Shown: positions 21,371-39,409 of the stretch, piece after piece
Layout: each line of letters opens with the position of its first letter
Numbering within the stretch: position 1 is the stretch's first letter
Source: Acidihalobacter aeolianus
GTDB taxonomy: Bacteria; Pseudomonadota; Gammaproteobacteria; DSM-5130; Acidihalobacteraceae
Direction: 5' to 3'
Length of the DNA stretch: 64,000 nt
Assembly (NCBI RefSeq): GCF_001753165.1
Contig: NZ_CP017448.1
Coordinates: 1,258,462 to 1,322,461, forward strand
Made by a program: the position numbers and the translations under genes
The notes under the pieces: generated by a model
Database searches by the model: none
Seen by the model: the letters and a program-made list of their open reading frames with translations, nothing else
Told to the model about the DNA's origin: nothing

Positions 21371-21598
21371 CTAGGGCCTGTTCACACTCTGGGGTGGCGT
21401 GCTGCCGGAGCCACTTTGCGTGGCTCGCCAGGCGCCGCGAGGCGCGCAAAGCGGCCGGCCCTACGGGTTGCGGCTGAAAAACCGCCACTCGGCGTTGCTC
21501 GTCGCTGATTTGGCATCACCAAACTGCGCTCCTCGCGCCTTGATTGGCGGTTTTTCAGTCACAACAGCTCGCTACCCCAGAGTGTGAACAGGCCCTAG
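21371..21598. mobile_element. 228-bp MITE related to the resident IS5-family element
   Basis: A 228-bp segment with perfect 25-bp terminal inverted repeats (21371-21395 and 21574-21598), starting and ending with CTAG. The outer bases CTAGGGCCTGTTCACA match both ends of the IS5-family element at 38596-39409, and 18 bases match its right end. It encodes no transposase. Inside lies a second perfect 14-bp inverted repeat (21474-21487 and 21545-21558, beginning CTGAAAAACC). CTAG at both ends fits an IS5-type target. It lies between the FUSC gene and the glycosyltransferase stop codon. Confidence 0.85.
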
Positions 21599-22794
21599 TG
21601 AGGCGTGCTACCCACAGCCGGTTGCTCCATGTCGGTCGCCGCATTGTGATGGATGATGTCGGTGTAGAAACCGGCCAGCCGCCGTGCCTGCGCAGCGGCA
21701 TTCCACTGTTCGGCGTATGCGGGACCTTCCGCGGCAAGTTTTGCACGCAGTTGCAGGTCGCGCAGCAGGGCGATCACCTTGGCCGAATAATCGGTCAGAT
21801 CGTCTTCGGCGACGAGCGCGCCGCCGCCTTGCTCCGTCAGAATGTCGCGGGTGCCCATGATTGCCGTCGAGATCACCGGCACGCCGAGGCTCAGCGCCTC
21901 GAGCAGCACCAGGCCCTGGGTTTCGGTGCGCGAAGCGAAGACGAAGGCGTCGGCGGCACGGTAGCAGTCGGCCAGGGTCTGGCGGCGGTCGAGATAGCCG
22001 ACGAAACGCAGATGCCCGTCGAGGCCGAGACGGTGGCCGAGTTGCTTGAGGTGGCGTAACGCAGGACCTTCTCCGGCGACGATGAGCAGGACCTCGGGAA
22101 TCTCTCGGCGGACCCGATCGAGCATGTGCAGCAGGAAATCGATGTTCTTCTCGTGCGCGATGCGTCCCACGTGGACCAGCGTCGGGCGATCAGCGGCGAT
22201 GCCGAGATCGCGCCGGAACGCGGCGCCGTCGCCGGCGGGGTTCAGCGTGTCGACCCCGGTGGGGATGATGCGTGTCGGCACGTGCACGCCGTAGACCCGC
22301 AGACGCTCCGCCATCGCCGTCGAAGGAACGACGAGGCCGTCCAGGTCGTTGCACTGCATGGCCGAAAACCGCCGCGCGGCGAAGCGGGTCAGCGCCGAGG
22401 GTACCCAGGGCAGATAGTGGTAGAGGTATTCCTCGAAGAAGGTATGGTAGGTCTCGACCCGGGGGATACCGAGGCGTCGAGACAGGCGCACGCCGGCATG
22501 GTGGGCGATGAAGGGCGTTTGGATATGGATGATGTCGAAATCCTGTGCCGCCAGCGTGCCGGTCAGGGACAACACCCGACCGCGCCGCATCATGCGGTCT
22601 TCCGGGTCGGCAAACAGATAGCGCGCCGCTACGCGGGTGATCCCGGGTTCGTCGTCGCTGGCTCCCGGATAGGCCGGCGCGATCAGGTGGACGCGGTGCC
22701 CCAGCGCATCGAGTTCGCGGCGGAAGGTGGCGATGGATGTCGACACGCCGTTCACGCGTGGGAAATACACATCGCTCAGCATCAGGATATTCAT
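21595..22794 (-). CDS. Glycosyltransferase family 4 protein
   Basis: The 399-residue protein has a GT-B fold: N-terminal MNILMLSDVYFPRVNGVSTS, a GT4-type acceptor region (ETYHTFFEEYLYHYLPWVPS), a donor-site phosphate-binding region (LVHVGRIAHEKNIDFLL) and the E-x7-E-type motif in FASRTETQGLVLLEA. It resembles alpha-mannosyl/glucosyl transferases that act on lipids such as diacylglycerol or phosphatidylinositol, but the acceptor cannot be told. Its TAG stop codon coincides with the CTAG end of the MITE. It is divergent from yjbQ. Confidence 0.9.
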   Translation of the reverse strand: MNILMLSDVYFPRVNGVSTSIATFRRELDALGHRVHLIAPAYPGASDDEPGITRVAARYLFADPEDRMMRRGRVLSLTGTLAAQDFDIIHIQTPFIAHHAGVRLSRRLGIPRVETYHTFFEEYLYHYLPWVPSALTRFAARRFSAMQCNDLDGLVVPSTAMAERLRVYGVHVPTRIIPTGVDTLNPAGDGAAFRRDLGIAADRPTLVHVGRIAHEKNIDFLLHMLDRVRREIPEVLLIVAGEGPALRHLKQLGHRLGLDGHLRFVGYLDRRQTLADCYRAADAFVFASRTETQGLVLLEALSLGVPVISTAIMGTRDILTEQGGGALVAEDDLTDYSAKVIALLRDLQLRAKLAAEGPAYAEQWNAAAQARRLAGFYTDIIHHNAATDMEQPAVGSTPH

Positions 22795-36860: not shown

Positions 36861-38563
36861 TAACTACTCAGTGAAAATAATTACAAAAAGTACTTGACAG
36901 GGTTTTTGGTAGTTTTTTTGAAAATATGGCGGCGCTGTAACGAGTGCGATTATTGGTCTCCGAAAGCGACAGAGGCGTAGTCTTCCTTGCGACATCACGC
37001 GAGGCACTGCCCCACCGTCAGTCAATTATTTTACGCCGCCAGATCGCCTTACAAACGAGAAAATTGGCACTTCAAAACCCGTGAGATAATAGCTTCATTA
37101 CTTCTTTGGAGCAGTCTTGCGTGCGGATCGACGGCGTCGATATCGAGATCACCCTGGCACAGGTCAGGGCGCAACTGGAGCAGGAGAAAGACCTATCTCC
37201 GGCACTCCGCGCCAGTATCGAGATGATGCTCATGTTGTTCGTCGTGTTACTCAACCGTCTCGGGCTCAATAGCCGCAACAGCAGTCAGCCGCCGGCATCG
37301 GATCCCAATCGGCCACGCAGCCAGCGTGTGCGCTCAAGCCGACCTTCCGGTGGCCAGCCGGGGCACGTGGGCAAGACCTTGCGCCCGGTCGAGCATCCCG
37401 ATGAGATCGAGGTCCTCAAGATCGATCGTCGTCGCTTGCCGAAAGGCTGCTATACCGAGGCGGGTTTCGAGACTCGCCAGGTTTTTGATATCGACATCAG
37501 CCGGATCGTGACCGAGTATCGGGCGCAGATCCTGGAGAATGAATCAGGCCAACGTTTTGTGGCTTCATTCCCGGAAGGGGTGGATAAGAAGGTGCAGTAT
37601 GGTTCCGGCCTCAAGGCCCATGCCGTCTATCTGTCCCAATATCAGCTCTTGCCCTACAAGCGGATCCAGGATTACTTTGCCGATCAGTTGGGCATCCCTT
37701 TGAGCGATGGTTCACTGGTGAACTTCAATCGCGAGGCATTTACCCGCCTGGCGGCCTTTGAGGCGATCAGCAAAACGGCATTGGCCAAAGCCGTGTCCGC
37801 TCATGCCGACGAGACCGGGGTCAACATTGATGGCAAACGCCATTGGCTGCATGGTCTGTCCAATGCTGATTGGACGCATTATCAGGTCCACAGTAAGCGA
37901 GGCCAGGAGGCGATGGACGCGATCGGGATCCTGCCACGGTTCCGCGGTGTGCTGTGTCATGACCATTGGAAACCCTATTACCGTTATCGGGACTGCACCC
38001 ATGCCCTGTGCAATGCCCACCACCTGCGCGAACTGGAACGAGCATTCGAGCAGGACGGACAACAATGGGCGGAAGCGATGGGCAAGCTGCTCAGAGAGAT
38101 TCATCAGGCCGTCGAGAACGCTGGCGGCATCCTGCCGCTGACCGAGGCCAATGCTTACCGGCAGCGCTACCGAGATGTGCTCGAGGCGGGGCAACTGGAA
38201 TGCCCTGAGCCGGAAAAACCACCCGACAACAAGCCTCGGGGGCGGATCAAGCGGAGCAAGGCCCGCAATCTGCTGGAGCGTCTGATGGCCTATGAAGACG
38301 ATGTGCTGCGTTTCATGGTGGACGTCAATGTGCCGTTCACGAACAATCAGGCGGAGAACGATATCCGTATGACCAAAGTGCAGCAGAAGATCTCCGGCTG
38401 CTTCCGCAGCCTGGAGGGTGCCGCGATGTTTTGCCGCATACGGGGATATCTATCGACCTGCCGAAAGCAGGGGGTCACGGCTTCGGAGGCGTTGCGCCTA
38501 GTATTCGATCGCAAGCTACCGGCTTTTGCTCTGGCGATCTCTGAGAATTAGCTGAGTAGTTAC
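36860..38563 (+). mobile_element. IS66-family insertion sequence, copy 2
   Basis: A 1704-bp element, opposite in orientation to copy 1, with the same GTAACTACTCAG ends and its own 8-bp target duplication CTTGGATA at 36852-36859 and 38564-38571. Because each copy has its own matching duplication, both arose by separate insertions and no inversion between them has been fixed. The sequence appears identical to copy 1, so at least one insertion is recent. Confidence 0.94.
37106..38551 (+). CDS. IS66-family transposase (copy 2)
   Basis: The 481-residue transposase is identical in translation to copy 1, with the DDE residues in HADETGVNIDG, LCHDHWKPYY and NNQAENDIRM. It starts with TTG at 37106. 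A TTGACA at 36893-36898 in the leader could be a -35 element for it; no convincing -10 was found. Confidence 0.95.
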   Translation: MEQSCVRIDGVDIEITLAQVRAQLEQEKDLSPALRASIEMMLMLFVVLLNRLGLNSRNSSQPPASDPNRPRSQRVRSSRPSGGQPGHVGKTLRPVEHPDEIEVLKIDRRRLPKGCYTEAGFETRQVFDIDISRIVTEYRAQILENESGQRFVASFPEGVDKKVQYGSGLKAHAVYLSQYQLLPYKRIQDYFADQLGIPLSDGSLVNFNREAFTRLAAFEAISKTALAKAVSAHADETGVNIDGKRHWLHGLSNADWTHYQVHSKRGQEAMDAIGILPRFRGVLCHDHWKPYYRYRDCTHALCNAHHLRELERAFEQDGQQWAEAMGKLLREIHQAVENAGGILPLTEANAYRQRYRDVLEAGQLECPEPEKPPDNKPRGRIKRSKARNLLERLMAYEDDVLRFMVDVNVPFTNNQAENDIRMTKVQQKISGCFRSLEGAAMFCRIRGYLSTCRKQGVTASEALRLVFDRKLPAFALAISEN

Positions 38564-38595: not shown

Positions 38596-39409
38596 CTAGG
38601 GCCTGTTCACATTAATTTTGATATAATTGCTGCATGGAAATTACCTTGCAGCAGTACAAAATCATCGAGCCCTTGTTGCCGCTTCCGCGAGGCAATATAA
38701 AAATATCCAACCTACAGGTGCTTAACGCGATCCTGTACGTGGCCGAGCATGGCTGCAAGTGGCGTGGCTTACCGGTCCGTTTCGGTCGCTGGCACAGCAT
38801 CTATATGCGCGCCAATCGCTGGGCCAAACAGGGCGTGCTGGATCGAGTCTTCCTGGCGCTGCAGGAAAACGACGTGATTAATATCCAAGTCGATCATGTC
38901 TCGCTCGATTCCACAGCCGTCAAGGTTCATCCAGACGGAACCGGTGCTTTAAAAAAAACGGTCCTCAATCTATCGGCAAATCCCGCGCCGGATGGACAAC
39001 CAAGATTCATCTGGTCGCCGCCGGAGCCAATCGAGCCGTAGCCTTTCGACTTTCCCCGGGACAGGCCGGAGATGCACCAGAAGGCAGAAAACTGCTCAAA
39101 AGCCTGGAGCACTGCGGCTGGGAAGGCACCTCGGTCATCATGGACCGCGCCTATGAGGGTGACGAGACGCGCCAGCTCGCGCTGGATCTGGGTATGACCC
39201 CAGTGGTGCCGCCCAAGCGCAATCGGCTCACGCCTTGGGAATACGATCTTGAACTTTACAAGAAGCGCAATGAAGTCGAGCGACTATTCCGAAGACTCAA
39301 AGGATTTCGGCGCATCTTCTCACGCTTCGATAAGCTCGATGTCGTCTTCACCTTCTTCATCCACTTCGCTCTCATCGTCGATACACTTATTAGTGTGAAC
39401 AGGCCCTAG
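38596..39409 (+). mobile_element. IS5-family insertion sequence (two-frame, IS427-like)
   Basis: An element of about 810 bp with terminal inverted repeats starting CTAGGGCCTGTTCACA (left 38596, right ending 39409) and CTAG at both ends, as in IS5-type target duplication. It encodes one transposase in two frames joined by a -1 slip. The same ends occur on the 228-bp MITE at 21371-21598. Confidence 0.9.
38634..39409 (+). CDS. IS5-family transposase with programmed -1 frameshift
   Basis: The first frame runs 38634-39041 and ends out of frame; the second continues to a TAG at 39407-39409. They join at a run of eight A (38951-38958) containing A-AAA-AAA, a classic -1 slippery heptamer, after which the sequence reads NGPQSIGKSRGGWTTKIHLV. 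Catalytic residues: Asp in VSLDSTAVKVHPDG, Asp in VIMDRAYEGDE and Glu in KKRNEVERLFRRLKGFRRI. The fused product is about 258 residues, normal for this group. Confidence 0.88.

Follow-up and report, generated by a model that had tools for sequence, protein, structure and literature searches.

A non-autonomous transposon of Acidihalobacter aeolianus joins IS5-type ends to hairpin modules found in at least two bacterial classes

We analyzed a 64,000-nucleotide stretch of the Acidihalobacter aeolianus genome (the window) and found that the repeat at positions 21371-21598 belongs to a family of non-autonomous transposons whose ends are of the IS5 type, an assignment that is well supported. The window copy would be a decayed member of this family, whose elements of about 270 bp carry 30-bp terminal repeats around two inverted 105-nt hairpin modules. 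The overall account that we hold to be probable is that of an ancient superfamily of structured MITEs, cross-mobilized by YTAR-targeting IS5-family transposases.

The element proper spans 21374..21595 on the plus strand (222 bp) and is a deletion form of the 271-bp family consensus, which was derived from an alignment of the genome copies and whose length includes the CTAG ends. A sequence-only reading of the window had reported CTAG at each end and perfect 25-bp terminal inverted repeats. Both were seen. CTAG is present at both sides of 21371-21598, and the left repeat (21371..21404, plus strand, including the flanking C and the TA) and the right repeat (21565..21598, minus strand, including the TA and the flanking G) are 94% complementary over 34 nt, the outer 25 bp being perfect by eye. 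The absence of coding sequence, noted in the same reading, also held: a conserved small protein was considered, as the consensus contains a 56-amino-acid open frame, but this frame has no Pfam match and is broken by indels in copies. At 222-271 bp and with no transposase gene, the element lies within the size range of MITEs (<600 bp). It also shows terminal inverted repeats, a target duplication, dispersed copies and ends in common with an autonomous element of the same genome. BLAST identified at least 12 further copies in the genome, and a covariance model of one hairpin found 13 copies that retain hairpin B, besides shorter relics, which bears out the earlier description as a MITE. In two of these relics, of 43 and 38 bp (L237:1366-1408 and L238:1660-1697), the two terminal repeats stand almost back to back.

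Inside the terminal repeats, hairpin module B (21464..21568, plus strand, 105 nt) is diagnostic of the superfamily and gave the sole match to covariance model R1 within the window (118.7 bits, E = 8.8e-31). Its apex (21491..21543, plus strand; GGCGTTGCTCGTCGCTGATTTGG...CTCCTCGCGCCTTG) is near-invariant, as judged by alignments and by the 22-mer survey described below. The internal inverted repeat that had been described as 14 bp long exists but is longer, with 24-nt arms (21467-21490 / 21542-21565) that are 88% complementary. According to folds and alignments, module A is represented by a remnant on the minus strand (21402..21459) that retains its paired arms and lacks the conserved apical loop. 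This loop was lost via a deletion of 44 bp relative to the consensus, between short direct repeats CCGCGAG (scar at 21428..21441), which is common to the window copy and the copies near 1,103,700 and 718,140. The fold of 21371-21598 is far beyond chance, both as DNA (-90.2 versus -46.5 kcal/mol for shuffles, z = -12.1) and as RNA (z = -13.6). The layered fold proposed at the outset belongs to a larger arrangement of two modules, which is conserved in two bacterial classes.

The consensus fold of 25 divergent elements consists of a terminal stem around two hairpins and a small CCC(TTCG)GGG centre. In this set, 63/77 pairs were changed on both sides, double-change cells numbered 407 compared to 122 ± 9 after shuffling, and the covariation score was 0.548, against 0.171 for shuffled data and 0.09-0.13 when partners were slid. 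Similarly, in 30 sequences of module B, including those from plasmids, all 16/16 arm pairs were changed on both sides, with 133 double-change cells versus 34 ± 5 in shuffles. As these alignments show, the stems change sequence yet stay Watson-Crick complementary between lineages. The apical ~55 nt, on the other hand, are nearly invariant, and the arms are unrecognisable between lineages with a near-identical apex. Furthermore, a model built on module B only found module A on the opposite strand, with E values down to 5.7e-19, in all complete elements searched but one. The interior is thus an inverted duplication of one ~105-nt module. One-hairpin versions occur as well (L088, L101, L163, and in genomes G404 and G377). 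From these comparisons, the interior is shown to be a conserved module with a history of its own.

Some relatives carry additional sequence. A 1060-bp relative bounded by terminal inverted repeats (L064:564-1623, G001:C1) holds, inside the module B loop, 794 bp that include a toxin-antitoxin pair of VapBC-like type (PIN domain and FitA-like RHH). This segment has imperfect inverted ends of its own (18/24; 0/2000 shuffles) and a 9-bp TCGGCGTTG repeat; it therefore reads as a nested insertion, and we rejected the idea of a toxin-antitoxin passenger element. Likewise, a HigBA-like gene pair lies directly upstream of a half element (L075:805-1621, G001:C1), but it is not a bounded passenger, since no left end was found. 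In L090, L086, L179 and others, nested small repeats CCCCGAAGGAAGTGCCCTTGGGGTGCG occur in arms or loops, sometimes in tandem.

The module is widespread in Gammaproteobacteria and Zetaproteobacteria. A degenerate pattern of the core recovered at least 120 stretches in GTDB contigs. The hosts among the matches listed include Candidatus Thiodiazotropha, Salinisphaerales, Woeseiaceae, Chromatiaceae, Abyssibacter, Nitrococcus mobilis, Cellvibrionaceae, Porticoccaceae and a Zetaproteobacterium, as well as one record labelled Pedobacter that may be a mis-binned contig. The apex 22-mer, at up to 1 mismatch, was present in 19/274 sampled genomes of the class and in 24/299 of the phylum, several of the latter falling outside the class, and the reversed pattern gave 0 matches. 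Plasmids of Azotobacter chroococcum, Halomonas and Pseudomonas aeruginosa PA83 carry the module in unannotated sequence; it was the module alone that matched plasmids, the full consensus giving no match there. An exact 30-mer scan of genome contigs gave no match, and neither phages nor E. coli genomes matched the family. Most elements of the superfamily measure 265-300 bp, and their ends depend on the lineage (GGGCCTGTTCACAC, GGGCCTGTTAACAC, AGAGCCTGTCTGTGAATAA, AGAACCTATCTC, GGGTCTGTTGACG, AGGAAACACTGAT, GGGAGTGTCCTCAATG and others).

One copy (e11) lies in a stretch of about 3 kb that is 99.9-100% identical between G000:C1 near 2,086,900 (L011) and G002:C1 near 123,200 (L063), in species that are otherwise about 75% identical at the window locus. 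Such near-identity would reflect either a recent horizontal transfer or a shared island.

We hypothesize that the module adopts a hairpin or cruciform structure as DNA and that its fixed apex is read by a conserved host factor aiding transposition or persistence, which is the weakest step of the proposed mechanism. The identity of the arms would be free to drift. For a DNA hairpin with a host factor, we judge the case to be evenly balanced. That the apex stays constant next to arms that vary freely speaks for its being functional. An alternative, which we consider unlikely, is that the modules are functionless, the arms being kept complementary by self-correction through template switching during replication and the apex being alike because of recent horizontal spread. 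In agreement with this, changes on both arms are common even between close copies, including in the window copy's own terminal repeats, where ACTATG became ACTCTG on both arms. Among copies that diverge by 10% or less, paired changes were 10-20 times above the prediction for independent mutations, as counted over sequence pairs that are non-independent, and this excess supports a share for self-correction. Recent horizontal transfer is likewise suggested by the e11 stretch. However, recent spread would bring similar arms too, yet the arms are unrecognisable where the apex is near identical, and a constraint on the apex is therefore needed.

It is still less likely, in our estimate, that the module acts as RNA after transcription from flanking genes, whether it terminates transcription, governs processing or stability, or serves as a small RNA. 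The RNA folds are very stable, as given above, and insertions are mostly located between genes, with 29% of 113 inside ORFs versus 83% of random points according to crude ORF calls. In tandem gaps, moreover, one orientation prevails 33:11 (p = 0.001). These features would suit an RNA; the orientation bias, though, stems almost entirely from the GTDB set dominated by Thiodiazotropha (L084-L203), with 22:4 there and 11:7 elsewhere. Intergenic insertions are distributed over tandem, convergent and divergent gaps in the background proportions, so that gene ends are not preferred; a preference for convergent gene pairs was considered and rejected, the observed frequency equalling the intergenic background. 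An RNA helix is expected to tolerate G-U pairs. In arm B (30 sequences), these are nearly absent, about 5 cells showing a one-sided (wobble) change versus about 130 double changes. A direct count of mismatches gave 12 G-T versus 23 A-C in arm B and 22 G-T versus 17 A-C in arm A, so that A-C mismatches roughly equal or outnumber G-T. On the alignment of 25 elements, a previous count had given 40 G-T versus 11 A-C for arm A, much of which came from two columns. The near absence of G-T wobble favors upkeep at the DNA level, either of a hairpin/cruciform or by palindrome correction, over a folded RNA; it does not separate selection from self-correction. Speaking further against an RNA, neither a full-length copy nor the VapBC-bearing copy matched any Rfam 15 covariance model at E <= 1, and no promoter-like or terminator-like signal was found in the window copy.

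Returning to the DNA hairpin, its most far-reaching formulation is that of an undescribed superfamily in at least two classes, whose conserved double-hairpin module repeatedly switches termini to different IS5-type transposases, while a conserved host factor reads the fixed apex and selection acts on the stems as hairpins of DNA and not of RNA. We propose this formulation only tentatively.

A candidate source of transposase lies in the window itself. The resident IS (38599..39406, plus strand, 808 bp) is bordered by TA duplications at 38597-38598 and 39407-39408. Its orfA (38634..39041, plus strand) encodes DUF4096 and the beginning of a DDE domain, and an A8 run (38951..38958, plus strand) may allow orfA to be joined by frameshifting to orfB, which lies in frame -1 and whose stop codon TAG (39407-39409) derives from the target site. 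The joined protein matched NCBIfam transpos_IS5_3 (NF033580) with E = 1.9e-68 and 230.8 bits, the cut-off being 110, and exceeded the Pfam cut-offs for DUF4096 (PF13340) and DDE_Tnp_1 (PF01609). The genome harbors five copies that are ~96-100% identical, four of which are uninterrupted. The fifth, at L243:730-8924 (G000:C1 766,730-774,921), is interrupted by an insertion of about 8 kb. In both the window genome and genome G126, the transposase stop, TAG or TAA, is completed by the target site. The transposase matches assign the resident IS to the IS5 family, and from the CTAG/YTAR target, the target-completed stop and the two frames it appears to be of the IS427/IS870 type. It resembles IS870/IS427-type members in its two-frame DDE transposase, its CTAG/YTAR target and its target-supplied stop, the latter being already announced in the title of the IS870 paper (Fournier et al. 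1993, ref. 93 of PMC6471742). This likeness concerns the resident IS only, as the element studied here has no transposase and an unrelated interior. Adjoining the resident IS, a 481-amino-acid ORF at 37106-38551 looks, from its sequence, like an IS66-type transposase.

The ends CTAGGGCCTGTTCACA matched the window four times, compared to 0.33 expected, exactly at both ends of the element and both ends of the IS (38596-39409 with its CTAG context). In the 3.5-Mb genome, the terminal 16-mer gave 30 matches at up to 1 mismatch and the reversed pattern 0. The element has 16 bp in common with the left end of the IS and 18 bp with its right end, which confirms the 16-18 outer bases initially reported as common to the two. 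The differing 7 inner bases had been taken as a possible sign of derivation from a close relative of the IS. This did not stand: the change is shared by both ends of the window copy, and the family consensus end, CACTATGGGG, is one base nearer to the IS right end than the window copy is. Because the terminal 16-18 bp and the target rule are common to element and IS, movement in trans by an IS870/IS427-type IS5-family transposase can be proposed; no candidate other than the IS at 38599-39406 was seen, and this IS is likely to move the element.

The shared ends and target site would also suit an ordinary MITE that arose when the resident IS, or an IS closely related to it, underwent an internal deletion, a possibility that we consider very unlikely. 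Indeed, no similarity to the resident IS was found in the interior beyond the ~20-bp ends, and no hairpin module was found in or near the 13 IS-bearing loci. In addition, in other families and classes this interior is flanked by several distinct types of ends. The interior is thereby shown, at the level of sequence comparison, not to derive from the resident IS, and the element is not a trimmed derivative of this IS; nor does it appear to be one of a close relative. The classical MITE origin, internal deletion of an autonomous element, was thus not observed, although this origin is not strictly needed for the MITE label.

The terminal repeats track the local IS5-type element in two genomes. 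In the window genome (G000), the ends of the elements, GGGCCTGTTCACAC, resemble those of the local IS; in G126, the IS5-type elements end in GGGCGTGTTAACACTAAT, which is close to the GGGCCTGTTAACACTA of the local elements and differs from the ends in the window genome. The elements of G404 are poorly matched by the local IS end, and no transpos_IS5_3-type gene was detectable in the element-bearing genomes G213, G356, G328, G148 and G019, whose elements must be due to other transposases or to none that is still active. The family would persist by matching its termini to whichever such transposase is present.

CTAG is present at the ends, as described above, but it is not the duplicated unit. 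In 73 relatives with clean ends, the end tetramers were mostly CTAG/CTAG, TTAG/CTAG, CTAG/CTAA or TTAG/CTAA; as the two are often unequal, the duplication is TA within YTAR. A YTAR target with duplicated TA is one rule for IS and elements alike. In the window, the TA duplications are located at 21372..21373 (in a CTAG context) and 21596..21597. The minus-strand ORF 21595-22794 is not broken by the insertion: its TAG stop is made of the right TA duplication and the terminal base of the element (21595). The same gene ends in TGA in the congeners. Insertions showed no significant preference for stop codons (12/49 versus 8.2 expected).

Both congeneric genomes show synteny of the flanking genes, at ~71-75% identity, and an empty orthologous site, which answers the check that the sequence-only reading had proposed in relatives. 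The window element was thus inserted after the split from these congeners, at a YTAR site and with duplication of TA. The finding that would have spoken against a MITE, a single copy conserved in place, is not what we observed, since the family is multicopy and the orthologous site empty. That the repeat is a fixed, immobile regulatory element of the host has a negligible probability: its structure is conserved across taxa, but the orthologous sites are empty, the target is duplicated and many copies are non-orthologous.

We compared these elements with known systems. Other bacterial MITEs (reviewed in PMC10969869; Correia elements, Coxiella QMITEs) are likewise short and non-coding, with terminal inverted repeats, target duplications, mostly intergenic sites, a strong fold and presumed mobilization in trans by an IS. 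However, they usually stem from one genus and one IS, whereas here one interior module occurs in at least two classes with lineage-matched ends. Integron attC sites are hairpins of variable stem sequence that retain their fold. As far as a comparison by description allows, attC sites have conserved box ends and a fold read as single-stranded DNA, while in the present elements conservation lies in the apex and variation in the outer arms. In REPINs, two inverted hairpin units make up one mobile non-autonomous repeat. REPINs (PMC3116915) and RAYT-associated REPs (PMC2817692) resemble our elements in these two respects, inverted hairpin units and a non-autonomous repeat. Their units are nevertheless much smaller and rely on a transposase of the tyrosine type, unlike the 105-nt hairpin with DDE-type IS ends and target found here. 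The MITEs of Thiomargarita (PMC4853749) differ from the present elements in their ends and duplications. No description of the element was found in Rfam or in the open papers searched, and literature queries with the terminal and core sequences returned unrelated primer-like strings only. Within the literature searched, the superfamily has thus not been reported before.

The usual explanation of a MITE is that a single IS was trimmed. In the present family, the structured interior is far more conserved than the mobilizing ends, and this across classes, with stems whose sequence changes are nearly all paired. If our account is true, these elements would offer a natural data set on long inverted repeats in bacteria, in which selection for a DNA hairpin could be weighed against self-correction. 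They might also point to a host factor reading the apex that is common to Gamma- and Zetaproteobacteria, and one covariance model could annotate many intergenic repeats that are at present unannotated.
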